A stretch of DNA of 64,000 bases from contig NC_088786.1 of NCBI RefSeq assembly GCF_949628265.1, positions 38,337,681 to 38,401,680 of the forward strand. Direction: 5' to 3'. Position numbers and translations under genes: made by a program. The notes beneath the pieces are model-generated. The model ran no database searches. It was not told where the DNA came from and worked only from the letters and a program-made list of their open reading frames with translations. This DNA is from Cloeon dipterum (taxonomy: Eukaryota > Arthropoda > Insecta > Ephemeroptera > Baetidae). Positions within the stretch are counted from its first letter, which is position 1, and the number at the start of each line of letters is the position of its first letter. Of this stretch, positions 28,843 to 55,884 are shown one piece after another.

Positions 28843-28846
28843 TTAA
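28843..28846. other. TTAA target-site duplication, left
   Basis: TTAA immediately before the first base of the terminal inverted repeat (AGCAATTGGCCCGTG). It is matched by TTAA at 46532-46535 directly after the mirrored end. Confidence 0.88.
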
Positions 28847-29339
28847 AGCAATTGGCCCGTGAGGCCTATACTCTGGTATCAAAAGAAAGCTTCTTAAATT
28901 TTAATAAGAAGAGTACTCTGAAAAAAGTCGAAAATATAATCGGAAGTGGTGCAAAGTTAGCATTTTCATGCTGGCACCTTTTTGAGTGTAGCGCGCCGTT
29001 AGCGTGGTCACGTGACAGAAATATGGCCGCCGTGCATGACAACACATGGAACTAACCGCAACAGTGCTACTATGTACGCAAACCATCGTTCGAAGTTATA
29101 AATCGTGATAGAACGTTCATCTTTCCTATTAATTACAAGATAATTAATTTATCTCGTGTTCAACAGACGGTAAAAACAAAAGGAATGCTGGCATACGAAG
29201 CATTATGTGTTATATTATAATACGCTGGCGAATGGCGAAGCTTGGTCCTCGCCAAATTTTCTGAAAAGGTAAATTTAGACTAGACCAAAGCAGAGAATGA
29301 ATGTGTTTATTGACTTTTCTCATTTCTAAGACGTGTGTG
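28847..29339 (+). repeat. 5' terminal inverted repeat, unique part
   Basis: Non-satellite outer arm mirrored by 46039-46531. The ORFs of 61-97 codons within it occur in both arms because the arms are copies; they have no recognisable domain. It contains GTGGTCACGTGAC and AATATGGCCGCC segments that could be regulatory. Confidence 0.88.
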
Positions 29340-32300
29340 AAAGAGACGCAGAGCATATTTGGCAAATTTCTGCTGCCAGTTGAGTGTGCCGCATGAAACA
29401 CAGATCAAAAAAAACCGTAGAAAAGCGGATGACATGCTTCGCCACCAGTTACAAGAAGAAGAAAGGAGTTGAGCAAGGCAGGGTTTCAGTTATCATGTAC
29501 TGTTCTAATTTTTCAGGGGTGAGTGAAGGAGCAGAGAGTGTTTGTGGAATTTCTGATGCCAGTGCCTTTTGCCACATGAAAAGAGATCAACAGAAAGTGT
29601 CGAAAAGTGGATGACATGCTTCGCCACCAGTTACTAGAAGAAGGAAGGAGTTGAGCAAGGCAGGGTTTCAGTTATCATGTACTGTTCTAATTTTTCAGGG
29701 GTGAGTGAAGGAGCAGAGAGTGTTTGTGGAATTTCTGATGCCAGTGCCTTTTGCCACATGAAAAGAGATCAACAGAAAGTGTCGAAAAGTGGATGACATG
29801 CTTCGCCACCAGTTACTAGAAGAAGGAAGGAGTTGAGCAAGGCAGGTTTTCAGTTATCATGTACTGTTCTAATTTTTCAGGGGTGAGTGAAGGAGCAGAG
29901 AGTGTTTGTGGAATTTCTGATGCCAGTGCCTTTTGCCACATGAAAAGAGATCAACAGAAAGTGTCGAAAAGTGGATGACATGCTTCGCCACCAGTTACTA
30001 GAAGAAAGGAGTTGAGCAAGGCAGGGTTTCAGTTATCATGTACTGTTCTAATTTTTCAGGGGTGAGTGAAGGAGCAGAGAGTGTTTGTGGAATTTCTGAT
30101 GCCAGTGCCTTTTGCCACATGAAAAGAGATCAACAGAAAGTGTCGAAAAGTGGATGACATGCTTCGCCACCAGTTACTAGAAGAAGAAAGGAGTTGAGCA
30201 AGGCAGGGTTTCAGTTATCATGTACTGTTCTAATTTTTCAGGGGTGAGTGAAGGAGCAGAGAGTGTTTGTGGAATTTCTGATGCCAGTGCCTTTTGCCAC
30301 ATGAAAAGAGATCAACAGAAAGTGTCGAAAAGTGGATGACATGCTTCGCCACCAGTTACTAGAAGAAGAAAGGAGTTGAGCAAGGCAGGGTTTCAGTTAT
30401 CATGTACTGTTCTAATTTTTCAGAGGTGAGTGAAGGAGCAGAGAGTGTTTGTGGAATTTCTGATGCCAGTGCCTTTTGCCACATGAAAAGAGATCAACAG
30501 AAAGTGTCGAAAAGTGGATGACATGCTTCGCCACCAGTTACTAGAAGAAGAAAGGAGTTGAGCAAGGCAGGGTTTCAGTTATCATGTACTGTTCTAATTT
30601 TTCAGAGGTGAGTGAAGGAGCAGAGAGTGTTTGTGGAATTTCTGATGCCAGTGCCTTTTGCCACATGAAAAGAGATCAACAGAAAGTGTCGAAAAGTGGA
30701 TGACATGCTTCGCCACCAGTTACTAGAAGAAGGAAGGAGTTGAGCAAGGCAGGGTTTCAGTTATCATGTACTGTTCTAATTTTTCAGGGGTGAGTGAAGG
30801 AGCAGAGAGTGTTTGTGGAATTTCTGATGCCAGTGCCTTTTGCCACATGAAAAGAGATCAACAGAAAGTGTCGAAAAGTGGATGACATGCTTCGCCACCA
30901 GTTACTAGAAGAAGGAAGGAGTTGAGCAAGGCAGGGTTTCAGTTATCATGTACGGTTCTAATTTTTCAGGGGTGAGTGAAGGAGCAGAGAGTGTTTGTGG
31001 AATTTCTGATGCCAGTGCCTTTTGCCACATGAAAAGAGATCAACAGAAAGTGTCGAAAAGTGGATGACATGCTTCGCCACCAGTTACTAGAAGAAAGGAG
31101 TTGAGCAAGGCAGGGTTTCAGTTATCATGTACTGTTCTAATTTTTCAGGGGTGAGTGAAGGAGCAGAGAGTGTTTGTGGAATTTCTGATGCCAGTGCCTT
31201 TTGCCACATGAAAAGAGATCAACAGAAAGTGTCGAAAAGTGGATGACATGCTTCGCCACCAGTTACTAGAAGAAGGAAGGAGTTGAGCAAGGCAGGTTTT
31301 CAGTTATCATGTACTGTTCTAATTTTTCAGGGGTGAGTGAAGGAGCAGAGAGTGTTTGTGGAATTTCTGATGCCAGTGCCTTTTGCCACATGAAAAGAGA
31401 TCAACAGAAAGTGTCGAAAAGTGGATGACATGCTTCGCCACCAGTTACTAGAAGAAGGAAGGAGTTGAGCAAGGCAGGGTTTCAGTTATCATGTACTGTT
31501 CTAATTTTTCAGGGGTGAGTGAAGGAGCAGAGAGTGTTTGTGGAATTTCTGATGCCAGTGCCTTTTGCCACATGAAAAGAGATCAACAGAAAGTGTCAAA
31601 AAGTGGATGACATGCTTCGCCACCAGTTACTAGAAGAAGGAAGGAGTTGAGCAAGGCAGGTTTTCAGTTATCATGTACTGTTCTAATTTTTCAGGGGTGA
31701 GTGAAGGAGCAGAGAGTGTTTGTGGAATTTCTGATGCCAGTGCCTTTTGCCACATGAAAAGAGATCAACAGAAAGTGTCGAAAAGTGGATGACATGCTTC
31801 GCCACCAGTTACTAGAAGAAGGAAGGAGTTGAGCAAGGCAGGGTTTCAGTTATCATGTACTGTTCTAATTTTTCAGGGGTGAGTGAAGGAGCAGAGAGTG
31901 TTTGTGGAATTTCTGATGCCAGTGCCTTTTGCCACATGAAAAGAGATCAACAGAAAGTGTCGAAAAGTGGATGACATGCTTCGCCACCAGTTACTAGAAG
32001 AAGGAAGGAGTTGAGCAAGGCAGGGTTTCAGTTATCATGTACTGTTCTAATTTTTCAGGGGTGAGTGAAGGAGCAGAGAGTGTTTGTGGAATTTCTGATG
32101 CCAGTGCCTTTTGCCACATGAAAAGAGATCAACAGAAAGTGTCGAAAAGTGGATGACATGCTTCGCCACCAGTTACTAGAAGAAAGGAGTTGAGCAAGGC
32201 AGGGTTTCAGTTATCATGTACTGTTCTAATTTTTCAGGGGTGAGTGAAGGAGCAGAGAGTGTTTGTGGAATTTCTGATGCCAGTGCCTTTTGCCACATGA

Positions 32301-35300
32301 AAAGAGATCAACAGAAAGTGTCGAAAAGTGGATGACATGCTTCGCCACCAGTTACTAGAAGAAGAAAGGAGTTGAGCAAGGCAGGGTTTCAGTTATCATG
32401 TACTGTTCTAATTTTTCAGAGGTGAGTGAAGGAGCAGAGAGTGTTTGTGGAATTTCTGATGCCAGTGCCTTTTGCCACATGAAAAGAGATCAACAGAAAG
32501 TGTCGAAAAGTGGATGACATGCTTCGCCACCAGTTACTAGAAGAAGGAAGGAGTTGAGCAAGGCAGGGTTTCAGTTATCATGTACTGTTCTAATTTTTCA
32601 GGGGTGAGTGAAGGAGCAGAGAGTGTTTGTGGAATTTCTGATGCCAGTGCCTTTTGCCACATGAAAAGAGATCAACAGAAAGTGTCGAAAAGTGGATGAC
32701 ATGCTTCGCCACCAGTTACTAGAAGAAGGAAGGAGTTGAGCAAGGCAGGGTTTCAGTTATCATGTACTGTTCTAATTTTTCAGGGGTGAGTGAAGGAGCA
32801 GAGAGTGTTTGTGGAATTTCTGATGCCAGTGCCTTTTGCCACATGAAAAGAGATCAACAGAAAGTGTCGAAAAGTGGATGACATGCTTCGCCACCAGTTA
32901 CTAGAAGAAGGAAGGAGTTGAGCAAGGCAGGGTTTCAGTTATCATGTACTGTTCTAATTTTTCAGGGGTGAGTGAAGGAGCAGAGAGTGTTTGTGGAATT
33001 TCTGATGCCAGTGCCTTTTGCCACATGAAAAGAGATCAACAGAAAGTGTCGAAAAGTGGATGACATGCTTCGCCACCAGTTACTAGAAGAAGGAAGGAGT
33101 TGAGCAAGGCAGGGTTTCAGTTATCATGTACTGTTCTAATTTTTCAGGGGTGAGTGAAGGAGCAGAGAGTGTTTGTGGAATTTCTGATGCCAGTGCCTTT
33201 TGCCACATGAAAAGAGATCAACAGAAAGTGTCGAAAAGTGGATGACATGCTTCGCCACCAGTTACTAGAAGAAAGGAGTTGAGCAAGGCAGGGTTTCAGT
33301 TATCATGTACTGTTCTAATTTTTCAGGGGTGAGTGAAGGAGCAGAGAGTGTTTGTGGAATTTCTGATGCCAGTGCCTTTTGCCACATGAAAAGAGATCAA
33401 CAGAAAGTGTCGAAAAGTGGATGACATGCTTCGCCACCAGTTACTAGAAGAAGAAAGGAGTTGAGCAAGGCAGGGTTTCAGTTATCATGTACTGTTCTAA
33501 TTTTTCAGGGGTGAGTGAAGGAGCAGAGAGTGTTTGTGGAATTTCTGATGCCAGTGCCTTTTGCCACATGAAAAGAGATCAACAGAAAGTGTCGAAAAGT
33601 GGATGACATGCTTCGCCACCAGTTACTAGAAGAAGAAAGGAGTTGAGCAAGGCAGGGTTTCAGTTATCATGTACTGTTCTAATTTTTCAGAGGTGAGTGA
33701 AGGAGCAGAGAGTGTTTGTGGAATTTCTGATGCCAGTGCCTTTTGCCACATGAAAAGAGATCAACAGAAAGTGTCGAAAAGTGGATGACATGCTTCGCCA
33801 CCAGTTACTAGAAGAAGGAAGGAGTTGAGCAAGGCAGGGTTTCAGTTATCATGTACTGTTCTAATTTTTCAGGGGTGAGTGAAGGAGCAGAGAGTGTTTG
33901 TGGAATTTCTGATGCCAGTGCCTTTTGCCACATGAAAAGAGATCAACAGAAAGTGTCGAAAAGTGGATGACATGCTTCGCCACCAGTTACTAGAAGAAGG
34001 AAGGAGTTGAGCAAGGCAGGTTTTCAGTTATCATGTACTGTTCTAATTTTTCAGGGGTGAGTGAAGGAGCAGAGAGTGTTTGTGGAATTTCTGATGCCAG
34101 TGCCTTTTGCCACATGAAAAGAGATCAACAGAAAGTGTCGAAAAGTGGATGACATGCTTCGCCACCAGTTACTAGAAGAAGGAAGGAGTTGAGCAAGGCA
34201 GGGTTTCAGTTATCATGTACTGTTCTAATTTTTCAGGGGTGAGTGAAGGAGCAGAGAGTGTTTGTGGAATTTCTGATGCCAGTGCCTTTTGCCACATGAA
34301 AAGAGATCAACAGAAAGTGTCGAAAAGTGGATGACATGCTTCGCCACCAGTTACTAGAAGAAGGAAGGAGTTGAGCAAGGCAGGGTTTCAGTTATCATGT
34401 ACTGTTCTAATTTTTCAGGGGTGAGTGAAGGAGCAGAGAGTGTTTGTGGAATTTCTGATGCCAGTGCCTTTTGCCACATGAAAAGAGATCAACAGAAAGT
34501 GTCGAAAAGTGGATGACATGCTTCGCCACCAGTTACTAGAAGAAAGGAGTTGAGCAAGGCAGGGTTTCAGTTATCATGTACTGTTCTAATTTTTCAGGGG
34601 TGAGTGAAGGAGCAGAGAGTGTTTGTGGAATTTCTGATGCCAGTGCCTTTTGCCACATGAAAAGAGATCAACAGAAAGTGTCGAAAAGTGGATGACATGC
34701 TTCGCCACCAGTTACTAGAAGAAGGAAGGAGTTGAGCAAGGCAGGGTTTCAGTTATCATGTACTGTTCTAATTTTTCAGGGGTGAGTGAAGGAGCAGAGA
34801 GTGTTTGTGGAATTTCTGATGCCAGTGCCTTTTGCCACATGAAAAGAGATCAACAGAAAGTGTCGAAAAGTGGATGACATGCTTCGCCACCAGTTACTAG
34901 AAGAAGAAAGGAGTTGAGCAAGGCAGGGTTTCAGTTATCATGTACTGTTCTAATTTTTCAGGGGTGAGTGAAGGAGCAGAGAGTGTTTGTGGAATTTCTG
35001 ATGCCAGTGCCTTTTGCCACATGAAAAGAGATCAACAGAAAGTGTCGAAAAGTGGATGACATGCTTCGCCACCAGTTACTAGAAGAAGGAAGGAGTTGAG
35101 CAAGGCAGGGTTTCAGTTATCATGTACTGTTCTAATTTTTCAGGGGTGAGTGAAGGAGCAGAGAGTGTTTGTGGAATTTCTGATGCCAGTGCCTTTTGCC
35201 ACATGAAAAGAGATCAACAGAAAGTGTCGAAAAGTGGATGACATGCTTCGCCACCAGTTACTAGAAGAAGGAAGGAGTTGAGCAAGGCAGGGTTTCAGTT

Positions 35301-38300
35301 ATCATGTACTGTTCTAATTTTTCAGGGGTGAGTGAAGGAGCAGAGAGTGTTTGTGGAATTTCTGATGCCAGTGCCTTTTGCCACATGAAAAGAGATCAAC
35401 AGAAAGTGTCGAAAAGTGGATGACATGCTTCGCCACCAGTTACTAGAAGAAGGAAGGAGTTGAGCAAGGCAGGGTTTCAGTTATCATGTACTGTTCTAAT
35501 TTTTCAGGGGTGAGTGAAGGAGCAGAGAGTGTTTGTGGAATTTCTGATGCCAGTGCCTTTTGCCACATGAAAAGAGATCAACAGAAAGTGTCGAAAAGTG
35601 GATGACATGCTTCGCCACCAGTTACTAGAAGAAGGAAGGAGTTGAGCAAGGCAGGGTTTCAGTTATCATGTACTGTTCTAATTTTTCAGGGGTGAGTGAA
35701 GGAGCAGAGAGTGTTTGTGGAATTTCTGATGCCAGTGCCTTTTGCCACATGAAAAGAGATCAACAGAAAGTGTCGAAAAGTGGATGACATGCTTCGCCAC
35801 CAGTTACTAGAAGAAGGAAGGAGTTGAGCAAGGCAGGGTTTCAGTTATCATGTACTGTTCTAATTTTTCAGGGGTGAGTGAAGGAGCAGAGAGTGTTTGT
35901 GGAATTTCTGATGCCAGTGCCTTTTGCCACATGAAAAGAGATCAACAGAAAGTGTCGAAAAGTGGATGACATGCTTCGCCACCAGTTACTAGAAGAAGGA
36001 AGGAGTTGAGCAAGGCAGGGTTTCAGTTATCATGTACTGTTCTAATTTTTCAGGGGTGAGTGAAGGAGCAGAGAGTGTTTGTGGAATTTCTGATGCCAGT
36101 GCCTTTTGCCACATGAAAAGAGATCAACAGAAAGTGTCGAAAAGTGGATGACATGCTTCGCCACCAGTTACTAGAAGAAAGGAGTTGAGCAAGGCAGGGT
36201 TTCAGTTATCATGTACTGTTCTAATTTTTCAGGGGTGAGTGAAGGAGCAGAGAGTGTTTGTGGAATTTCTGATGCCAGTGCCTTTTGCCACATGAAAAGA
36301 GATCAACAGAAAGTGTCGAAAAGTGGATGACATGCTTCGCCACCAGTTACTAGAAGAAGAAAGGAGTTGAGCAAGGCAGGGTTTCAGTTATCATGTACTG
36401 TTCTAATTTTTCAGGGGTGAGTGAAGGAGCAGAGAGTGTTTGTGGAATTTCTGATGCCAGTGCCTTTTGCCACATGAAAAGAGATCAACAGAAAGTGTCG
36501 AAAAGTGGATGACATGCTTCGCCACCAGTTACTAGAAGAAGAAAGGAGTTGAGCAAGGCAGGGTTTCAGTTATCATGTACTGTTCTAATTTTTCAGAGGT
36601 GAGTGAAGGAGCAGAGAGTGTTTGTGGAATTTCTGATGCCAGTGCCTTTTGCCACATGAAAAGAGATCAACAGAAAGTGTCGAAAAGTGGATGACATGCT
36701 TCGCCACCAGTTACTAGAAGAAGGAAGGAGTTGAGCAAGGCAGGGTTTCAGTTATCATGTACTGTTCTAATTTTTCAGGGGTGAGTGAAGGAGCAGAGAG
36801 TGTTTGTGGAATTTCTGATGCCAGTGCCTTTTGCCACATGAAAAGAGATCAACAGAAAGTGTCGAAAAGTGGATGACATGCTTCGCCACCAGTTACTAGA
36901 AGAAGGAAGGAGTTGAGCAAGGCAGGTTTTCAGTTATCATGTACTGTTCTAATTTTTCAGGGGTGAGTGAAGGAGCAGAGAGTGTTTGTGGAATTTCTGA
37001 TGCCAGTGCCTTTTGCCACATGAAAAGAGATCAACAGAAAGTGTCGAAAAGTGGATGACATGCTTCGCCACCAGTTACTAGAAGAAGGAAGGAGTTGAGC
37101 AAGGCAGGGTTTCAGTTATCATGTACTGTTCTAATTTTTCAGGGGTGAGTGAAGGAGCAGAGAGTGTTTGTGGAATTTCTGATGCCAGTGCCTTTTGCCA
37201 CATGAAAAGAGATCAACAGAAAGTGTCGAAAAGTGGATGACATGCTTCGCCACCAGTTACTAGAAGAAGGAAGGAGTTGAGCAAGGCAGGGTTTCAGTTA
37301 TCATGTACTGTTCTAATTTTTCAGGGGTGAGTGAAGGAGCAGAGAGTGTTTGTGGAATTTCTGATGCCAGTGCCTTTTGCCACATGAAAAGAGATCAACA
37401 GAAAGTGTCGAAAAGTGGATGACATGCTTCGCCACCAGTTACTAGAAGAAAGGAGTTGAGCAAGGCAGGGTTTCAGTTATCATGTACTGTTCTAATTTTT
37501 CAGGGGTGAGTGAAGGAGCAGAGAGTGTTTGTGGAATTTCTGATGCCAGTGCCTTTTGCCACATGAAAAGAGATCAACAGAAAGTGTCGAAAAGTGGATG
37601 ACATGCTTCGCCACCAGTTACTAGAAGAAGGAAGGAGTTGAGCAAGGCAGGGTTTCAGTTATCATGTACTGTTCTAATTTTTCAGGGGTGAGTGAAGGAG
37701 CAGAGAGTGTTTGTGGAATTTCTGATGCCAGTGCCTTTTGCCACATGAAAAGAGATCAACAGAAAGTGTCGAAAAGTGGATGACATGCTTCGCCACCAGT
37801 TACTAGAAGAAGAAAGGAGTTGAGCAAGGCAGGGTTTCAGTTATCATGTACTGTTCTAATTTTTCAGAGGTGAGTGAAGGAGCAGAGAGTGTTTGTGGAA
37901 TTTCTGATGCCAGTGCCTTTTGCCACATGAAAAGAGATCAACAGAAAGTGTCGAAAAGTGGATGACATGCTTCGCCACCAGTTACTAGAAGAAGGAAGGA
38001 GTTGAGCAAGGCAGGGTTTCAGTTATCATGTACTGTTCTAATTTTTCAGGGGTGAGTGAAGGAGCAGAGAGTGTTTGTGGAATTTCTGATGCCAGTGCCT
38101 TTTGCCACATGAAAAGAGATCAACAGAAAGTGTCGAAAAGTGGATGACATGCTTCGCCACCAGTTACTAGAAGAAGGAAGGAGTTGAGCAAGGCAGGGTT
38201 TCAGTTATCATGTACTGTTCTAATTTTTCAGGGGTGAGTGAAGGAGCAGAGAGTGTTTGTGGAATTTCTGATGCCAGTGCCTTTTGCCACATGAAAAGAG

Positions 38301-40095
38301 ATCAACAGAAAGTGTCGAAAAGTGGATGACATGCTTCGCCACCAGTTACTAGAAGAAGGAAGGAGTTGAGCAAGGCAGGGTTTCAGTTATCATGTACTGT
38401 TCTAATTTTTCAGGGGTGAGTGAAGGAGCAGAGAGTGTTTGTGGAATTTCTGATGCCAGTGCCTTTTGCCACATGAAAAGAGATCAACAGAAAGTGTCGA
38501 AAAGTGGATGACATGCTTCGCCACCAGTTACTAGAAGAAGGAAGGAGTTGAGCAAGGCAGGGTTTCAGTTATCATGTACTGTTCTAATTTTTCAGGGGTG
38601 AGTGAAGGAGCAGAGAGTGTTTGTGGAATTTCTGATGCCAGTGCCTTTTGCCACATGAAAAGAGATCAACAGAAAGTGTCGAAAAGTGGATGACATGCTT
38701 CGCCACCAGTTACTAGAAGAAAGGAGTTGAGCAAGGCAGGGTTTCAGTTATCATGTACTGTTCTAATTTTTCAGGGGTGAGTGAAGGAGCAGAGAGTGTT
38801 TGTGGAATTTCTGATGCCAGTGCCTTTTGCCACATGAAAAGAGATCAACAGAAAGTGTCGAAAAGTGGATGACATGCTTCGCCACCAGTTACTAGAAGAA
38901 GAAAGGAGTTGAGCAAGGCAGGGTTTCAGTTATCATGTACTGTTCTAATTTTTCAGGGGTGAGTGAAGGAGCAGAGAGTGTTTGTGGAATTTCTGATGCC
39001 AGTGCCTTTTGCCACATGAAAAGAGATCAACAGAAAGTGTCGAAAAGTGGATGACATGCTTCGCCACCAGTTACTAGAAGAAGAAAGGAGTTGAGCAAGG
39101 CAGGGTTTCAGTTATCATGTACTGTTCTAATTTTTCAGAGGTGAGTGAAGGAGCAGAGAGTGTTTGTGGAATTTCTGATGCCAGTGCCTTTTGCCACATG
39201 AAAAGAGATCAACAGAAAGTGTCGAAAAGTGGATGACATGCTTCGCCACCAGTTACTAGAAGAAGGAAGGAGTTGAGCAAGGCAGGGTTTCAGTTATCAT
39301 GTACTGTTCTAATTTTTCAGGGGTGAGTGAAGGAGCAGAGAGTGTTTGTGGAATTTCTGATGCCAGTGCCTTTTGCCACATGAAAAGAGATCAACAGAAA
39401 GTGTCGAAAAGTGGATGACATGCTTCGCCACCAGTTACTAGAAGAAGGAAGGAGTTGAGCAAGGCAGGGTTTCAGTTATCATGTACTGTTCTAATGTCTC
39501 AGGGGTGAGTGAAGGAGCAGAGAGTGTTTGTGGAATTTCTGATGCCAGTGCCTTTTGCCACATGAAAAGAGATCAACAGAAAGTGTCGAAAAGTGGATGA
39601 CATGCTTCGCCACCAGTTACTAGAAGAAGGAAGGAGTTGAGCAAGGCAGGGTTTCAGTTATCATGTACTGTTCTAATTTTTCAGGGGTGAGTGAAGGAGC
39701 AGAGAGTGTTTGTGGAATTTCTGATGCCAGTGCCTTTTGCCACATGAAAAGAGATCAACAGAAAGTGTCGAAAAGTGGATGACATGCTTCGCCTGCTGTG
39801 GCCACCAGTTACTAGAGGTAGGATGGAGTTGAGCAAAGCAGGGTTTCAGTTATCATGTACTGGTCTAATGTCTCAGGGGTGAGTGAAGGAGCAGAGAGTG
39901 TTTGTGGAATTTCTGATGCCAGTGCCTTTTGCCACATGAAAAGAGATCAATAGAAAACGTCGAAAAGCGGATGTAATGCTTCGCCTGCTGTGGCCACCAG
40001 TTACTAGAGGTAGGATGGAGTTGAGCAAAGCAGGGTTTCAGTTATCATGTACTGTTCTAATTTTTCAGGGGTGAGTGAAGGAGCAGAGTGTTTGA
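29340..40095 (+). repeat. Left satellite array, ~182 bp unit, ~59 copies, higher-order structure
   Basis: Directly repeated units of 182 bp (179 bp in a short variant, 192 bp in the two innermost). Landmark GTGAGTGAAGGAGCAGAGAG starts at 29519, 29701, 29883, 30062, 30244 and so on to 40071. The outermost unit (29340-29520) is diverged and lies within the TIR; the two or three innermost carry GCCTGCTGTGGCCACC and AGAGGTAGGATGGAG. Variants differ at three places: the linker after TTACTAG (GAAGAAGG, GAAGAAAGG or GAAGAAGAAAGG), CAGGGTTTC versus CAGGTTTTC, and TTTTTCAGGGG versus TTTTTCAGAGG. The short variant recurs every 6, 6, 6, 7, 9, 7 and 7 units. Not coding: frames are broken in every unit. 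Confidence 0.95.
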
Positions 40096-40253
40096 GTAAT
40101 TTCTGATGCCATATTTGTGTGCCTCGTGAATTTCATAAGCTTAGTATCAGTGATTAGTAGGTCTTTTTTTCGCAGATGTGTAAAACAAGAGAAGCTTTTG
40201 TATCACCAGTTATGAAGCAATAAAATATTTTCAATTTGACTTGTAAATGACTT

Positions 40254-40878
40254 TTATTGTATATCTCTTGCTGGTTGAAATCCTATGTAGGAACCTGATG
40301 CTTCTGGCCATTTTTTTCTAATGATATTGACTACACACGCAGGGATTGTTTGTCTATTTCCTTTTCCCAATTTTTTTCCAGATGATATCCATGAAATGTA
40401 GCTTTTGTATGCAACAAAGCGCCTGCTTGAATTATTGTTCATTTTTAGTTTGCGCCTATGCTCAACATTTTTTGTGTACAAGAGTAAAGTGTTTTTCAAC
40501 ATCTTGAGAACGTCCTTGTTCAGAACTGTGCTTTTAAATCCTTGAGTTTGGGTGACACATTTTTTCTCGCTCTTTTTCAATTTTGATAAAGCGCCATTTG
40601 TATCACGACAGCAAATGTTCTCCATTGGGAGACCGGAATTTGAGCAATTATCACAATGGCACCAAAGGCTGAAATGTTGAGCACCACGTTCATAGAGTGC
40701 CTTTTTTCTGTTCGTTTCATGTTCTTTTTGTAATCTTCTTTCTTCAGTCATCTGAGGTTCTATATCAGGTGCAAAAGGCCGTAAGATATGTAATGAGTTT
40801 GCCATGGACTCAGCCTGTATTAAAAAATAAATTTTGAAAACAATCAAGTATATCTGCAATTTGGTTAAAAATTACCAT
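40254..40878 (-). CDS. P2X7 ballast-domain-like zinc protein of the transposon (187 aa)
   Basis: Two exons: ATG at 40876-40878 ends exon 1, a 61 bp intron (40815-40875, GTAATT...TACAG), then 40254-40814. Cysteine cluster WCHCDNC and ENICCR at about residues 52-71, a helical stretch KDVLKMLKNTLLLY, then RRFVAYKSYISW and the signature NRQTIPACVVNIIRKKWP with SYIGF near the end. This order matches the cytoplasmic ballast domain of vertebrate P2X7 (Cys-rich zinc cluster, RHxAYRxYxxW, ILPSCxxxxIRKEFP, YxGF). No membrane segment or P2X channel part is present. It is divergent to the transposase, 239 bp apart, so both are probably driven from one promoter region. A poly(A) signal overlaps the stop codon (40253-40258). 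The role in transposition is unknown. Confidence 0.85.
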
Positions 40879-41117
40879 GGTTTTGTGTTTTCATTTATTG
40901 TTTTGGTGGGTTATTTTGGTTTCGTTTCTATAAAAGCTCTAGCAGAGATTTTTGTTGTTCTTATATATTCCTCGTCACGTCATTGGTCGAAAGTCTTTGT
41001 TATTGGAGAACATATGGGGAACTTGGGGAACATTTATTGTTTTCAAACTCCATCTTTGTTTATGTTCAATAAAACCATAGTTTAGGAAGGCTGAAAATGA
41101 GTTAAATTTGCCCAACC
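40879..41117. promoter_or_regulatory. Bidirectional promoter of the transposon core
   Basis: The 239 bp between the ballast-gene start codon (minus) and the transposase start codon (plus). AT-rich, with TATATA at about 40961 and CGTCACGTCATTGG nearby (CRE-like plus CCAAT-like). Transcription starts cannot be placed from sequence alone. Confidence 0.5.
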
Positions 41118-43744
41118 ATGGGAAGAACGAAGTGTGTACTCTGTTCAGCTTCTTCTGGGAGAGGCAAAGGAGTAAAGCATTTTTACAAAATTCCCTTTTC
41201 TAACCCACAGCTGTAAGTTTGAAAGTTTATTATAATTTTGTCGTTTCCAAGATTTATTGAATAATTATTTTTTTATCAAATAGGCTTCAACAATGGGAAG
41301 AAAGATGTGGGCTCAAATTTGAAATTGAAAAAGACTCACACATCTGTGGAGACCACTTCAACCCCGCAGATTTTCATGCAGTAGTCGATGTACCAAAGCC
41401 GGCAAAAAGGCCCAAATTATCTGAATTTGCCGTACCAAGCCAAAATTTGACAAAAGGTTAATTTCCAAGACTGTTTAGTAAAATTAAAAAACAAAATGAT
41501 AAGAATCACGAAAATATATTCATTTCATCTTTTACAAATACAATTGATATATAACGTTTAAAAATGAATAGAATTGAATTTCTATCAACACTTTTGAATT
41601 AAAAATGAATATTAATATCTACGGACAGTTGCTGATGGAAATAAAATTTGATTGTAGTGACAGGGAAGAAAGCCACAACCACCAGAAGAGGTGTGAAGTC
41701 GAGTGCCTCGGAAAAAGTGCCGGAAACAAGGGAATCAAATCCAGGCACAATAGTAGAAATATCCCCCTCCGCATCAGGAGTTGTTCCATCAAGTACAGAC
41801 CAATCTCCTTCAGAGAAATCAAATGCAACGCTGACCATGAGTAGAAGAGAGAAGAGAGCTTCAAAAAGGAAACAAATTCTTCTTCCCATGGAAGTGTCAC
41901 CTGCAAAATCTGTAGAAGAAGTTTTATTTATTCCAAGTCCGTCCAAAGTCAGCACTCCAAAGAGAAAACAGCCAGATGACGTGGATTGTTCTCCACCTTC
42001 ACCCAAAAGTTTTTCCCCTCCAGCATCGCCAGCACCTGACTGTAGTGAAGATGAGATTTGTGACAATCAAGACCCTGAATACATGCCAGATAAATCCGCA
42101 TTAAATGAATCGACTCTACAGTCCTCTCTTGACAATGATCCTGATGAATTCGACGCTCGTATGAATGGCATCAAACACGTGCTTGTAGACGTTTGCAAAT
42201 TGGATCAACTTTTCACAAATTGTTCAACATGTGGATCAATGAATGAAGTTGAACGAGTGCGCACTGGAGCTTGTGTATCATATAAAACAACTTGTACCAA
42301 AAATTCAAAGCACGAGTTAGTTTGGAACTCGTCGTCAAAGACAAAGAACAAAATGCCAATTGTCAATTTGCTGCTGAGTGCTGCAATATTTTGCACAGGC
42401 CTCGGGTTCACGGCCTTCAAGAAGATTGCTGATAGCATTGGTCTTGCCTTTATGGGTAAGACCACATTTTACAACCATGTCAGCACATTTATCGCACCAG
42501 TATTGAGGCATTCATGGATCAAAATGAGACAGGAGATTTATGAAGAGTTGAAAAAAGAAGAAGATCTAGTATTTTCTGGCGATGCTAGGTTCGATTCTCC
42601 TGGGTTTAGTGCCAAATATTCCCTTTACTCCATCATGTCAAACAAAGACAGCAAAATTGTTGACTTTGTCCTTTTTCAAAAAGGGTTCGAAGATGGTGAG
42701 ATGGAGTCCAAATCTTTCAACCACACGTTCAAGAGAGTTGTAGAAGAAATTGGGTCCAAGAAAATCAAGACATTTTGCTCTGACAGAAATAGGTCTGTAG
42801 CAAAACTGATGAGGGAGCAGTTCAAAGGGATTGAACATTCTTTCGATGTAAGTTTACAAACCCGATTTAGCGGCAAAATTAATGTCATAGAGCACCTCCA
42901 AAACTAATCACAGGTCTGGCACTTGGCGAAGTCTCTTAGGAAGAGTTTAAGTAAAACTGCAAAAACCCATAAATGTTTGGAGCCATGGCTTGATTCCATC
43001 ATTAAGCACCTTTGGTACTGCAGTAGTACCTGTGGGGGAAGCGCTGATGTGCTGCTGGAGAAGTGGGACTCACTCAATCATCATCTCCGAGGAGAACATG
43101 AATGGCAAAAAGAGGGGAAAGCATTGTCTTGTGAGCACCCAAATTACGATCATGAACGCCAGCAAAACACGGATTGGGTCACTGATGATGACGCGCTTTT
43201 GGCTCTAAGAAAAGTAATAAATACAAAATTTTATTGTCTTATCTATAATATCTCATTTTAGGTAACACACAAACCATCATTTTTGCGAGACCTGACACAC
43301 TGCAGGTTCTACGTTCACACTGGACAACTTGAGTCCTTCCACAACGAAATTTTGGTCTATGCCCCTAAGAGACTCCATTATATGTTCGAAAACATGCAAC
43401 TGAGAATGATACTTGCCATCCTGGATCACAACAATAACGTTGGAAGGGCAGTAACTGGGAGTCACACAAGATATTCTAAATCACGAAAAGCCTTTTCCCT
43501 GGAAAATACCTATGAAACAAAAGATCATACCTGGAGGTATGACCTAATTCATGACATCCTTCAGTATGCAGGACACCCCGATGAATTCCTAGGAAGTGAG
43601 GAAGAGCAACTAAAACTCCTTTCACCCCCATACAGCATTCCAAAATCGACTGTAAGTGTTCCAAAACCAGGGCTAGAGGAACTACAGAGTAATCAAAATC
43701 TAAGAAGATTGGCTGCTGAGAGACAGCTTGCAATGAATCTATAG
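41118..43744 (+). CDS. THAP-domain Kolobok-like DDE transposase (746 aa)
   Basis: Exons 41118-41212, 41284-41456, 41658-42847, 42914-43213, 43262-43744 join in phase without an internal stop. Residues 1-85 form a THAP zinc finger: C6-x2-C9, W36, C53-x2-H56-F57, then a basic proline segment (KPAKRPKL). A Ser/Pro-rich linker follows (about 90-230), then a zinc-ribbon-like CSTCG...ACV segment (about 278-302). The catalytic core has candidate acids D398 (SGDARFDSPG, with a second D at 402), D465 (FCSDRNRS), and E610 (HTGQLESFHNE). Between D465 and E610 lies an insertion with WYCSSTC and HHLRGEHEW, a likely zinc-binding C2H module. The family is widespread in animal genomes. AATAAA at 43772. No frameshift was seen, so it may be functional. 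Confidence 0.9.
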
Positions 43745-43924
43745 TGTAAGGGAGGATATTTCAATTATACCAATAAACTTGTTAAAATTGTACAATATAA
43801 TTGATTTAATCAAAACCCAAACACATTAGACAGTCCTTGTTATAAACTTCAAATCAATAACTATACAGAGAATATAACTACATAAAATCACAAATGGTAC
43901 AATTAAATCCTACCCCAAGAGATG

Positions 43925-46038
43925 CCGGCGCAGGCCAAGCATGTCCTCCGCTTTTCGACGATTTCTGTTGGATCTCTTTTTATGTGGCAAAAGACACAGG
44001 TATCAGAAATTCCTCAAACACTCATTGCTCATTCAAACGCACACCTGAAAAATTAGACAAGTACATGATAACTGAAACGCTGCTTTGCTCAACTCCATCC
44101 TACCTCTAGTAACTGGTGGCGAAGCATGTCATCCACTTTTCGACACTTTCTGTTGATCTCTTTTCATGTGGCAAAAGGCACTGGCATCAGAAATTCCACA
44201 AACACTCTCTGCTCCTTCACTCACCCCTGAAAAATTAGAACAGTACATGATAACTGAAACCCTGCCTTGCTCAACTCCTTCCTTCTTCTAGTAACTGGTG
44301 GCGAAGCATGTCATCCACTTTTCGACACTTTCTGTTGATCTCTTTTCATGTGGCAAAAGGCACTGGCATCAGAAATTCCACAAACACTCTCTGCTCCTTC
44401 ACTCACCCCTGAAAAATTAGAACAGTACATGATAACTGAAACCCTGCCTTGCTCAACTCCTTCCTTCTTCTAGTAACTGGTGGCGAAGCATGTCATCCAC
44501 TTTTCGACACTTTCTGTTGATCTCTTTTCATGTGGCAAAAGGCACTGGCATCAGAAATTCCACAAACACTCTCTGCTCCTTCACTCACCCCTGAAAAATT
44601 AGAACAGTACATGATAACTGAAACCCTGCCTTGCTCAACTCCTTCCTTCTTCTAGTAACTGGTGGCGAAGCATGTCATCCACTTTTCGACACTTTCTGTT
44701 GATCTCTTTTCATGTGGCAAAAGGCACTGGCATCAGAAATTCCACAAACACTCTCTGCTCCTTCACTCACCCCTGAAAAATTAGAACAGTACATGATAAC
44801 TGAAACCCTGCCTTGCTCAACTCCTTTCTTCTAGTAACTGGTGGCGAAGCATGTCATCCACTTTTCGACACTTTCTGTTGATCTCTTTTCATGTGGAAAA
44901 AGGCACTGGCATCAGAAATTCCACAAACACTCTCTGCTCCTTCACTCACCCCTGAAAAATTAGAACAGTACATGATAACTGAAACCCTGCCTTGCTCAAC
45001 TCCTTCCTTCTTCTAGTAACTGGTGGCGAAGCATGTCATCCACTTTTCGACACTTTCTGTTGATCTCTTTTCATGTGGCAAAAGGCACTGGCATCAGAAA
45101 TTCCACAAACACTCTCTGCTCCTTCACTCACCCCTGAAAAATTAGAACAGTACATGATAACTGAAACCCTGCCTTGCTCAACTCCTTCCTTCTTCTAGTA
45201 ACTGGTGGCGAAGCATGTCATCCACTTTTCGACACTTTCTGTTGATCTCTTTTCATGTGGCAAAAGGCACTGGCATCAGAAATTCCACAAACACTCTCTG
45301 CTCCTTCACTCACCCCTGAAAAATTAGAACAGTACATGATAACTGAAACCCTGCCTTGCTCAACTCCTTCCTTCTTCTAGTAACTGGTGGCGAAGCATGT
45401 CATCCACTTTTCGACACTTTCTGTTGATCTCTTTTCATGTGGCAAAAGGCACTGGCATCAGAAATTCCACAAACACTCTCTGCTCCTTCACTCACCTCTG
45501 AAAAATTAGAACAGTACATGATAACTGAAACCCTGCCTTGCTCAACTCCTTCCTTCTTCTAGTAACTGGTGGCGAAGCATGTCATCCACTTTTCGACACT
45601 TTCTGTTGATCTCTTTTCATGTGGCAAAAGGCACTGGCATCAGAAATTCCACAAACACTCTCTGCTCCTTCACTCACCCCTGAAAAATTAGAACAGTACA
45701 TGATAACTGAAAACCTGCCTTGCTCAACTCCTTCCTTCTTCTAGTAACTGGTGGCGAAGCATGTCATCCACTTTTCGACACTTTCTGTTGATCTCTTTTC
45801 ATGTGGCAAAAGGCACTGGCATCAGAAATTCCACAAACACTCTCTGCTCCTTCACTCACCCCTGAAAAATTAGAACAGTACATGATAACTGAAACCCTGC
45901 CTTGCTCAACTCCTTTCTTCTTCTTGTAACTGGTGGCGAAGCATGTCATCCGCTTTTCTACGGTTTTTTTTGATCTGTGTTTCATGCGGCACACTCAACT
46001 GGCAGCAGAAATTTGCCAAATATGCTCTGCGTCTCTTT
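43925..46038 (-). repeat. Right satellite array, inverted, ~11-12 units
   Basis: Same ~182 bp unit as the left array but in reverse orientation (CTCTCTGCTCCTTCACTCAC marks each unit). About ten regular units, an inner diverged unit (43925-44110, with CAACTCCATCCTACCTCTAG matching the innermost left units) and the outer diverged unit in the TIR. At least one unit has the TTTTTCAGAGG type and one the GGTTTTC type, so variant classes are shared with the left array. Copy number is about one fifth of the left side. Confidence 0.95.
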
Positions 46039-46531
46039 CACACACGTCTTAGAAATGAGAAAAGTCAATAAACACATTCATTCTCTGCTTTGGTCTAGTC
46101 TAAATTTACCTTTTCAGAAAATTTGGCGAGGACCAAGCTTCGCCATTCGCCAGCGTATTATAATATAACACATAATGCTTCGTATGCCAGCATTCCTTTT
46201 GTTTTTACCGTCTGTTGAACACGAGATAAATTAATTATCTTGTAATTAATAGGAAAGATGAACGTTCTATCACGATTTATAACTTCGAACGATGGTTTGC
46301 GTACATAGTAGCACTGTTGCGGTTAGTTCCATGTGTTGTCATGCACGGCGGCCATATTTCTGTCACGTGACCACGCTAACGGCGCGCTACACTCAAAAAG
46401 GTGCCAGCATGAAAATGCTAACTTTGCACCACTTCCGATTATATTTTCGACTTTTTTCAGAGTACTCTTCTTATTAAAATTTAAGAAGCTTTCTTTTGAT
46501 ACCAGAGTATAGGCCTCACGGGCCAATTGCT
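46039..46531 (-). repeat. 3' terminal inverted repeat, unique part
   Basis: Reverse complement of 28847-29339, without visible indels, ending GGCCAATTGCT before TTAA. Confidence 0.88.
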
Positions 46532-46535
46532 TTAA
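46532..46535. other. TTAA target-site duplication, right
   Basis: TTAA directly after the 3' TIR end, followed by an A run. It pairs with 28843-28846. Confidence 0.85.
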
Positions 46536-53544: not shown

Positions 53545-55884
53545 TTAAGTCTCAACATCCTGAATGTTGCTCTCGGTGTGGTAGTCACCATCGACAGCCA
53601 ACATTTTCATTTTGTATGTTGCACCACGGTTGAGCCCCCTCAAAATTATGTAATCTTCTTCCAACTCTGGTTTCGAGATTTCAAAGACGGATTCGCCGCG
53701 GAGCTTGTACATCACTTGGAAGTACGATCCTGAGTAACCCTGGACATTCGGAAGCCATTGCACTCTAACATTGGCCAATCCATTGACGGGCGCTTCATTC
53801 TTCCATGTAAATTCAGGCACGTCCGGTTTCTTGGCCATGGGCGGCAACGTCCTCGTTTCAATAAAGAATTCATTTCCTTCACCAGCTTGTGTTGCGGCTC
53901 TGATTGTGATTCTGAACTTGGTGTTTGGTTTCAAACCGGCCAATTTGGCATGAAGTTGATTGGGATCTTCGATTTCCCTTCGTTGAAATAAAGGTTCGAT
54001 TTTGGTGCTGTTGATATCCTCGTAGTAAATTTTATAGCCGGTCAAGACTCCATTGGTTTGCAATGGTTTTTGCCACTTGAGGAGGAAGGCCGTCGAGCCA
54101 AGTGGATGGGCCTGAAGAGACGGCACAGCTTCAGGAATTCCTTCCGGTGTGTTGAAGGAAATGGTCTCGCTGGGTGGTCCATCGAAGAAATCAGTGTAAG
54201 CAACGATTCTGGCATAATTTTTCGAGAATGGAACGAATTTGTTGATCAGTGCGCGGCTGCTGTCATTGGAGGAGAACATTTCTCGCATGTTCTCCATGCC
54301 CTCCTCGTCAGTCCATGTTTGGATCTACAAAACAATTTCATGGGTCTATAGAAAGGAATAAAAGGAATTATACAGCGGGGGCCAGATGTGCGATAAAATT
54401 GGTTCGCATTGCGCAGATCCAAGATGGCGTCTGAATGTGGGAAACTCTTTGGAGTGTCAAGAGTTTGGTTTTACGATCCAATTAGTACAAGTAATGCAAA
54501 TTATGTCACAATATTGACCAAAACTTGGTTCACGTGACCGTGACTCCAACGGACGCCATGCGCATCGCACGAATCTGGCCCCCGCTGGAATTCTGTAAAT
54601 ACCTTGTAGCCTTTGAATTGGCTGATCACGCTTTCATCGGTTGCCGTTTCCCAACGAATCAAACCAGTTTTGCTGTCAATCACAGTAATGGTTAAATCCC
54701 TTGGAGTTGGAAGTGAATCTGGGAAAAGCAATTTATAAATATAATTGTTTCGTTGCGTGAAATGAAAAATAATCCTACTTGGGTTTCCTGAATAGCCCGT
54801 GATTTCCTGCGTAGCCACGTTAGCTTTGCCATTTTCGTTGATGGCCAAGACCATGATCTTGTATGGCTGGTAGGCAGGCAGGTCGGGAACCGTGATTCTG
54901 TCAACCTTCCAATCTGATATTAATTTGCCGTGCCAATCTGCGCCTTCAATTGCACGCTTCCACATGACGAGGTATTGGAATCTCGGTGCGTTATGCTCTA
55001 TTTCCGGCATTGGCTTCCACGAGATCACCATATTGTCAGGCTTGTCTCCCTGTGCTTCAACGATTTCGGGATTTTTCGCAGGTACATCAGGCTCTGTGGA
55101 GCAGACTCCGGAGACCGCAGAGGGTAGAGATTGTCCGATTTTGTTCCAGGCAATTACACGGAAGGTGTAGTTTGACCACGGACTCAATGGGACCTGGTTT
55201 TCAATGAAATGCGGTTAAATTAAGTGCTTAAAGACTGTCTTTGATGAATATTCTGAACACTCCAATCGATTCTTGAGGGCCGAATCCGGTAAAATGGATG
55301 TTTTTTTCCGACCAAAATGTCCAGCGCGACGTGCGAACTTTTTCCCGCCAAAACAATATGAATGCGGGAACTGCGCATGCGTCAGAGCAGGTTTGAGCAC
55401 TTACAGAGAGACCGCCTGTAGGAATAATGACCTCGGTGTCTAGCTCTCACGCATGCGCAGCTCTCGCATTCATATTGTTTGGCGGGAAAAAAAGGTTCGC
55501 ACGTTGCGTTGGACTTTCTGGTCGGATAAAATATCCACATTACCTAATTGGACCTTCAGGAATCGATTGGTGTGCTCATAACTTCATCAAAGACGGTCTT
55601 TATGCAATAAAATCCAGCTTTACCCTATAAGATGATTCCGATGCGGAAACATTCTCGGCAGCAATGTCCCATGAGTCCGGGGTGAAGCTCGTGTTGTATT
55701 GAATAGTGTACCGTAAGTTGGGGGTTTTGTTGTCACCTTTCGACTCCCATTCAATTGTAGCCTCAAACTCTTTGCACCTGATGCCTTTCAGATATGGCGG
55801 ATTTGGCACGTCTTCAACGGTCGGTTGAGCTAGCGACTGCGTGATGCACAGGGTAAAAAATACAAAGCTCGCTGGCACCCACAT
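53545..55884 (-). CDS. Secreted neuroglian FN3-only protein (523 aa)
   Basis: Exons 55624-55884, 54779-55193, 54603-54718, 53545-54324, in phase. Residues 1-20 are a signal peptide (ending TLCITQSLAQ), running without an intron into the first fibronectin III domain (VEDVPNPPYLKGIRCKEFE). Further FN3 domains follow (TEPDVPAKNPEIVEAQGDKP, SWKPMPEIEHNAP, GYKIYYEDINS, LKPNTKFRITI, EFTWKNEAPVNGLAN). These align in order with the FN3 region of Drosophila neuroglian and L1CAM proteins. The frame stops right after the last FN3 (HTESNIQDVET), where family members continue to a transmembrane helix and an ankyrin-binding FIGQY tail; neither is present. All six Ig domains are absent. The product should be soluble and extracellular. 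Tandem partner: the Ig-only gene 700 bp to the right. A start at 55926 would add 14 residues and weaken the signal peptide. Confidence 0.87.
54373..54587. mobile_element. MITE family H copy 1 in FN3-gene intron
   Basis: The termini CAGCGGGGGCCAGATGTGCG and the mirrored GCACGAATCTGGCCCCCGCTG are 21 bp-class inverted repeats. Partial flank similarity (GAATTATA / GAATTCTG) is compatible with a decayed 8 bp duplication. A second copy lies at 57014-57316. Confidence 0.75.
55232..55599. mobile_element. Family B MITE, near full length, in FN3-gene intron 1
   Basis: TTAA (55228-55231), then AGACTGTCTTTGATGAA; the right end TTCATCAAAGACGGTCT is followed by TTAT (decayed TTAA). Inner landmarks: CCAATCGATTCTTGAGGGCC, CCCGCCAAAACAATATGAAT, a palindromic GCGCATGCG centre, and the mirrored arm. 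It occupies almost all of the 430 bp intron and ends 25 bp from the exon. Confidence 0.85.

Follow-up and report, generated by a model that had tools for sequence, protein, structure and literature searches.

Probable Kol0-lineage Kolobok transposon with foldback-type ends and inverted satellite arms in Cloeon dipterum

Results

Structure of the element

A stretch of 64,000 nt of the genome of Cloeon dipterum (Insecta, Ephemeroptera; assembly GCF_949628265.1, NC_088786.1), hereafter the window, was analyzed. The genome comprises 190 Mb in 10 contigs; those referred to here are labeled C1, C2, C3, C4 and C5, and the window is C1:38337681-38401680. It contains an element of 17,685 bp at window positions 28847-46531, flanked by TTAA on each side (28843-28846 and 46532-46535). 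A first-pass annotation, made from the letters of the window, had described a Kolobok-like transposon between exactly these coordinates. Its ends, genes and genomic copies indicate that the element is probably a recently mobile, apparently autonomous DNA transposon of the Kolobok superfamily (Kol0 lineage) with foldback-type ends, a judgment that concerns its identity and architecture. The plan is as follows: a unique terminal inverted repeat (TIR) of about 0.5 kb, then satellite arrays that read inward, and finally a core with a divergent pair of genes.

The element starts with AGCAATTGGCCCGTGAGG and finishes with the reverse complement of the same sequence. The part of the TIR outside the array occupies 28847-29364 on the left (+ strand) and 46014-46531 on the right (− strand), and the latter is identical to the former when inverted. 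The two ends are identical over 818 bp inward of TTAA, which confirms that they are exact inverted repeats bounded by TTAA. Between the termini and the core, Tandem Repeats Finder reports a left array at 29365-40111 (+ strand; 182-bp unit, 59.1 copies, 98% matches) and a right array at 43933-46013 (− strand; the 182-bp unit inverted, 11.4 copies, 97% matches). The right array aligns with the left one in inverse orientation, and together they make up 72.5% of the length of the element, in agreement with the earlier estimate of over 70%. When the arrays were cut at a fixed anchor, the two arms yielded 58 and 11 anchored units. Three features had been missed in the first-pass annotation: this inequality of the arms (about 59 versus 11 units), the KolX gene, and a sister family with the same inverted-satellite plan.

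Genes of the core

The transposase gene lies at 41118-43744 (+ strand). Its predicted model, whose exons were inferred by eye from the sequence (41118-41212, 41284-41456, 41658-42847, 42914-43213 and 43262-43744), encodes 746 amino acids in a reading frame free of stops. The predicted introns measure 48-201 bp and are all of the GT..AG type, the second donor, GTTAAT, looking weak. The apparently intact THAP transposase announced earlier is a predicted five-exon open gene with a THAP domain (Pfam PF05485, 3.4e-8). A further match is PF20700, 'Mutator-like transposase' (1e-10); the Pfam search gave five matches at E values up to 1, none of them to a P-element model. Several motifs can be recognized, namely a C2CH pattern at residues 6-56, an AVPTIF-like box at 81 that reads AVPSQN and departs from AVPTIF at three positions, GDARFDS at 397-403, CSDRNRS at 463-469 and DVWH at 486-489. 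In the C-terminal part, an H/H/C/H stretch, HHLRGEHEWQKEGKALSCEH, is found at 542-561 and HTGQLESFH at 605-613; this H/H/C/H finger falls between DVWH and the last E. The catalytic DDE-type residues were assigned by pattern matching.

The KolX open reading frame lies at 40254-40859 (− strand) and encodes 201 amino acids from a TTG, or 183 from an internal ATG. It carries a domain like the P2X7 intracellular ballast (PF20478, 2e-24), and its best match to solved P2X7 receptor structures scores 1.9e-9. Apart from KolX, no open reading frame of at least 100 amino acids was found outside the transposase gene and its antisense.

A second full copy and related empty sites

A second full copy is present at C1:35007867-35020472 (TTAA included), about 3.35 Mb away on the same contig, and measures 12,598 bp without the TTAAs. 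The two copies are referred to as family 1, and the sister family as family 2. The 258 bases tested inward from TTAA have four perfect matches in the genome, which are both ends of both copies, and the first 606 bases (TTAA included) are identical in all four arms. The core of the second copy is in the opposite orientation to that of the window copy and differs from it at 1 of 3,750 bases; this difference, at 42417 in exon 3 of the transposase, is accompanied by a slightly lower protein score. KolX is open in both copies and identical over 183 amino acids. The flanks of the second copy share nothing but TTAA with those of the window copy, the homology stopping at TTAA.

The flanks of the window copy are part of a dispersed repeat (17 and 40 listed matches, the window's own included). 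At three places that were aligned, C1:37.953, C1:36.722 and C3:6.758 Mb, the left and right flanks join at one TTAA. These related empty sites are other copies of the dispersed repeat; they do not represent the insertion site itself as it stands in a different individual. A search for an empty site of the second copy, in which 40 of 1,193 candidates were scored, yielded none; apart from the copy's own two flanks, the listed matches were 49-66-base pieces confined to bases 1-68 of the 324-base query. Two of the checks proposed in the first-pass annotation, for the two termini occurring together elsewhere and for empty TTAA sites, gave positive results. The structure of the element is not due to chance, because there is a second full-length copy with different flanks together with related empty sites. 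These results support the conclusion that the family-1 element is mobile and that the satellite belongs to the mobile unit.

The copies might alternatively have spread by segmental duplication or ectopic exchange instead of transposition, as the location of both family-1 copies on one contig, about 3.35 Mb apart, would allow. However, the homology stops at TTAA, the flanks differ, and the related empty sites hold one TTAA; moreover, the copies of family 2 are distributed over two contigs and all have the same termini. We regard spread by duplication or exchange as extremely improbable.

Turnover of the arrays

The arms of the window copy hold 58 and 11 anchored units, and those of the second copy 26 and 15. 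The 106 full units of these four arms fall into 16 variants, 48 of the units being identical. In the left array of the window copy a run of 13 units is duplicated (reached in 0 of 500 shuffles), and in the left array of the second copy a run of 6 units (3 of 500 shuffles). It follows that the arrays grow by blocks and not only by single units. The arrays of the two copies differ by 32 and 4 units, as against the single base in the core and none in the first 606 bases; array length and make-up therefore change far faster than point mutation accumulates. The pair of copies offers a snapshot in which tens of units of array have changed against almost no point mutation.

Seven variants occur in more than one arm. 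Variant G occurs in both arms of the window copy and in no other, and F and I are private to the second copy, where each occurs in both arms; C is common to the two left arms only, and A, B and D are spread more widely. Such sharing is a hint that the two arms of a copy exchange units. The outermost and innermost units of the arrays are diverged, as is expected when exchange homogenizes the interior.

It should be considered whether the array lengths are artefacts of the assembly of inverted, near-identical arms. Arms of up to 11 kb made of near-identical units are hard to assemble, and the lengths given here are those of the assembly. On the other hand, the variant units form a non-random string in the largest array, the number of Ns is zero in both family-1 stretches, and inverted arrays are seen in five full copies as well as in a core-less one (see below). 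We consider such an artefact improbable.

A sister family with another satellite

A search with the transposase revealed three more copies, 47-52% identical to it in amino acids over the main exons and with exon-sized open frames. Their cores differ among themselves at 1-4 of 3,953 bp. One copy, located at C3:16502269-16511641 and 9,373 bp long including its two TTAAs, was read at both ends and starts with TTAA-ACCAATTGGC; its arrays are inverted and consist of a 174-175-bp unit in 7.7 and 13.4 copies. The ends of the other two, at C3:11481820-11494855 and C2:28049893-28059263, were placed by search, and for the latter one end and one array were confirmed by letters. The same termini are seen at all three copies, which are spread over two contigs. 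Each of the three contains KolX and has arrays in opposite orientation on its two sides, with extents by matches (KolX side/transposase side) of about 1.4/2.4, 4.7/2.7 and 2.1/1.7 kb. Taking both families together, inverted arrays flank the core on both sides in 5 of 5 copies with an intact-looking core; the arrays measure about 1.4-10.7 kb per arm and the whole elements 9-18 kb. The outermost 14 bases of the family-1 and family-2 termini agree at 13 positions, and the whole terminal repeats of the two families show no significant likeness. Since the inverted-satellite plan recurs in a sister family with a different satellite, this design seems to be a persistent feature and not an isolated accident.

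A core-less relative is found at C2:30786021, where arrays of about 2.9 and 2.6 units adjoin each other in opposite orientation, the likeness to the young 175-bp unit being 84-87% for the most part. Its right arm gives way to other sequence, with a matching terminus at C2:30793521. The arrays and this terminus are inferred to belong to one interrupted element, C2:30786021-30793521.

Two further observations were made on these sequences. First, the family-2 unit contains a strong splice-donor-like CAG/GTGAGT and an acceptor-like TTTTAG/G, which on the inward strand would bound an intron of 56 bp, close in size to the introns of the window transposase. The two arms of C3:16502269-16511641 contain 8 and 13 exact occurrences of each site, and of 6 listed donor-like sites in the older core-less derivative 4 have stayed unchanged. 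Transcripts that run inward through the family-2 arrays might be spliced from unit to unit. Secondly, inspection by eye showed ATGGCCGCC in the terminal repeats of family 1 and family 2 alike, some hundreds of bases in from the end, where it could represent a promoter element or the context of a start codon.

The satellites and weak termini elsewhere in the genome

One satellite search was made per family, the query being roughly one or two units long. For the 182-bp satellite, 27 of 27 listed matches lie inside the two family-1 copies. For the 175-bp satellite (8 of 8 candidates scored), 97 of 99 listed matches lie in four elements with recognizable termini, and the remaining 2 at one further place, C2:36131659-36131975. 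The proposal that the element seeds satellite DNA genome-wide finds no support here, the listed matches being almost all inside elements; as evidence of absence this is weak, because in the 182-bp search 3 of 4 candidates were scored and the left array of the window is itself missing from the list.

For three of four one-mismatch termini (C1:390514, C2:37246869 and C4:2760793), the surrounding 3 kb contained neither an inverted partner nor an array. The terminus pattern with up to 3 mismatches has 308 matches versus 185 for the reversed control, and for this reason weak termini were set aside. At C3:2828329-2828726, 398 bp lie between two inverted family-2-like termini (85% and 75%; judged from positions only), perhaps a derivative resembling a miniature inverted-repeat transposable element. 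Further KolX-like fragments, some with stops, were noted at C1:31756839-31757335, C5:991813 and C2:37022697, and are possibly traces of other Kol0 elements.

Assignment to the Kolobok superfamily

Published work is cited here by PMC identifier. Kolobok elements are characterized by TTAA duplications, RR termini and a zinc finger between C/DxxH and the last E (PMC9587614), and by DDE, THAP and H2CH motifs (PMC6004289). Kol0 families encode KolX, which resembles the P2X7 ballast, in addition to the transposase (PMC9587614). In our elements the 4-bp TTAA duplication is present in both family-1 copies and in the family-2 copy that was read at both ends. The termini of family 1 (AG...CT) fit the rule 5'-RR...YY-3'. 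By pattern, the DDE residues, C/DxxH, a zinc finger before the last E, the THAP C2CH and the AVPTIF-like box are all present, and KolX occurs in family 1 and in the three family-2 copies. The name Kolobok-like given in the first-pass annotation is therefore upheld by the TTAA target duplication, the THAP/DDE transposase and KolX. Foldback-type traits are also present, namely long inverted tandem-repeat ends that vary between copies, and a core-less two-arm form.

Two points tell against this assignment. The termini of family 2 start with AC, which breaks the RR rule, and the best Pfam match of the catalytic domain bears the name Mutator-like (PF20700, 1e-10). Taken at its word, the latter would make the element Mutator-like. 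However, the target duplication here is the 4-bp TTAA, compared with 9 bp in Tm1 and 8-10 bp in Tetris, and the THAP domain, KolX and an H/H/C/H finger that follows DVWH and precedes the last E are features of Kolobok or Kol0 (PMC9587614, PMC6004289). A Mutator-like identity is accordingly very improbable. Two other candidates were rejected. KolobokP, with long terminal direct repeats and a His-Me nuclease, does not fit the inverted ends, nor KolX as the only second gene identified. Galileo and the P superfamily, where the transposase is of the P type and the target duplication is 8 bp, do not fit the TTAA duplication, and the five Pfam matches include no P-element model.

Surroundings of the element

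Host genes beside the element include fibronectin type III exons (PF00041) at window positions 53545-55187 (− strand), which we take to belong to a neuroglian-like gene, and an ANAPC4 exon (PF12896) at 12117-12776 (− strand). Near-palindromic units of 281 bp at 399-679 and 7139-7419, 85% complementary and 6.5 kb apart, are possibly another inverted-repeat element.

Discussion

The Kolobok superfamily, the Kol0 lineage, the foldback architecture and Kolobok-derived tandem repeats (in Xenopus) were already known separately. Their combination, a Kol0 element with satellite arms of up to 10.7 kb and open genes, in two families with different satellites, was not found in the literature searched. 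With Kol0 elements such as Kolobok-1_XT of Xenopus (PMC9587614, PMC6004289) our elements share TTAA, a THAP and DDE transposase with C/DxxH and finger, and KolX, but unlike them both families have satellite arms of about 1.4-10.7 kb and a total length of 9-18 kb. Tandem-repeat arms have not been reported for Kol0 as far as the available text extends: 'tandem repeat', 'satellite' and 'subterminal' are absent from the main text of PMC9587614. Nor was there, among the listed matches in the open-licence literature, any paper on a Kolobok with foldback, subterminal or minisatellite arms.

The closest parallels in architecture come from other groups. Galileo, a Drosophila element of the P superfamily, likewise has a THAP transposase, long inverted repeats with direct tandem repeats, arms of variable length and core-less two-arm derivatives (PMC3573991, PMC3688188). 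It differs in its P-type transposase, in having only a few repeats, and in its TIRs, whose maximum in D. mojavensis is about 1.26 kb (PMC3573991); in 2013 all sequenced copies had stops or frameshifts (PMC3688188). Tetris and DAIBAM of Drosophila virilis have tandem repeats of about 220 bp inside inverted ends, with copy-number variation of the arrays, but no transposase was found for them, their TIRs reach at most 1,735 bp, and their duplications are 8-10 bp (PMC4079207). The Tetris repeat left the element to become satellite DNA (PMC4079207), an exit not seen among the matches listed here. The Mutator-type Foldback and Tm1 elements also have composite inverted ends of variable tandem repeats, some Tm1 with a putative transposase; they differ in repeats of about 14 bp, 9-bp duplications and a Phantom-like transposase, one example measuring 2.6 kb (PMC3169594). 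In Xenopus, Xstir from the T2-MITE Xmix (PMC6004289) and subtelomeric arrays from parts of Kolobok-2 (PMC10794172) are TTAA- and Kolobok-linked cases of an internal segment amplified in tandem, but they concern a small MITE or arrays outside the element. An autonomous element with inverted arrays in its two arms is not described in the Xenopus work consulted.

What do the arms do? We put forward, as a possible but rather unlikely explanation, that in one sublineage of Kol0 the inverted satellite arms are under selection for a function, namely as a docking platform with many sites for the THAP transposase; this platform would be remade at or between transpositions, each family replacing the satellite and keeping the 175-182 bp period and the inverted layout. 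Our preferred explanation goes less far. In it, the transposase would cut at the short termini and insert at TTAA, and its THAP domain would use repeated subterminal sites for recognition. A precedent exists in Galileo, where a THAP site was footprinted about 70 bp from the end and further sites lie in two tandem repeats of the long TIRs (PMC3688188). By analogy, this role is our first guess for the much longer arms of our elements, and we give an even chance to recognition of repeated subterminal sites by the THAP domain. Array growth would proceed by the duplication of blocks, by way of unequal exchange or template switching; the repair of breaks at donor or insertion sites, and pairing of one inverted arm with the other, probably assist it. 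Loss of the core would lead to foldback derivatives such as C2:30786021-30793521.

The satellites themselves provide some candidate sites, though as direct evidence these are weak. GGCA/TGCC, a THAP-like core, occurs 4 times per unit in both satellites versus about 1.4 expected (p 0.02 and 0.04). TTTCTG-TGCCA followed by TGCC-C-TGAA is kept in the diverged units at the outer edges and at the left inner edge of the 182-bp arrays, and in the right inner edge unit TACC replaces the first TGCC.

A number of results weigh against parts of this explanation. The excess of GGCA/TGCC was looked for after the fact. Neither satellite has significant similarity to its own terminal repeat, and no motif or word shared by satellites and termini is significant. 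The 175-bp and 182-bp units have no significant similarity to each other either (102/300 and 17/300 shuffles reach the best score on the two strands), and no excess of shared words; these similarity controls were 300 plain single-base shuffles each, the smallest tail in any of them being 17/300. The unit-order strings show no significant likeness in any pair of arms, within or between copies, and because of this arm-to-arm exchange stays a hint. Finally, older and more distant relatives show no comparable array in the stretches covered. At C1:40.658-40.661 Mb, where terminal-like and core-like pieces stand in an order that is perhaps not that of one element, no tandem array was found in 20 kb, nor in three further loci. 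Around the 38-49% relatives at C2:36.976 and 36.990 Mb no comparable array occurs in about 1.5 kb on each side, and only repeats of 21-28 bp are seen, at one edge. The arms therefore need not be universal in the lineage.

The arrays may instead be neutral passengers, in which a short subterminal duplication was expanded by unequal exchange and replication slippage and plays no role in transposition. This is a serious possibility, though short of an even chance. It accords with satellite units that lack detectable similarity between the two families, with array lengths that vary widely between near-identical copies, and with the lack of a significant motif common to array and terminus. It sits less easily with the 5 of 5 intact-looking-core copies that keep arrays on both sides, always inverted, though transposition efficiency usually drops with length (PMC3688188), and with the binding sites that Galileo, also with a THAP transposase, has in such repeats (PMC3688188).

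The reason for the long repetitive arms of foldback elements is an open question, and both Galileo (PMC3688188) and Tetris (PMC4079207) are described, in the text available, without intact transposase genes. In C. dipterum, near-identical copies with open transposase and KolX frames, related empty sites and two families with different arm satellites occur in one genome. This makes it possible to test directly what the arms do, and how satellite arrays arise and turn over within a mobile element.

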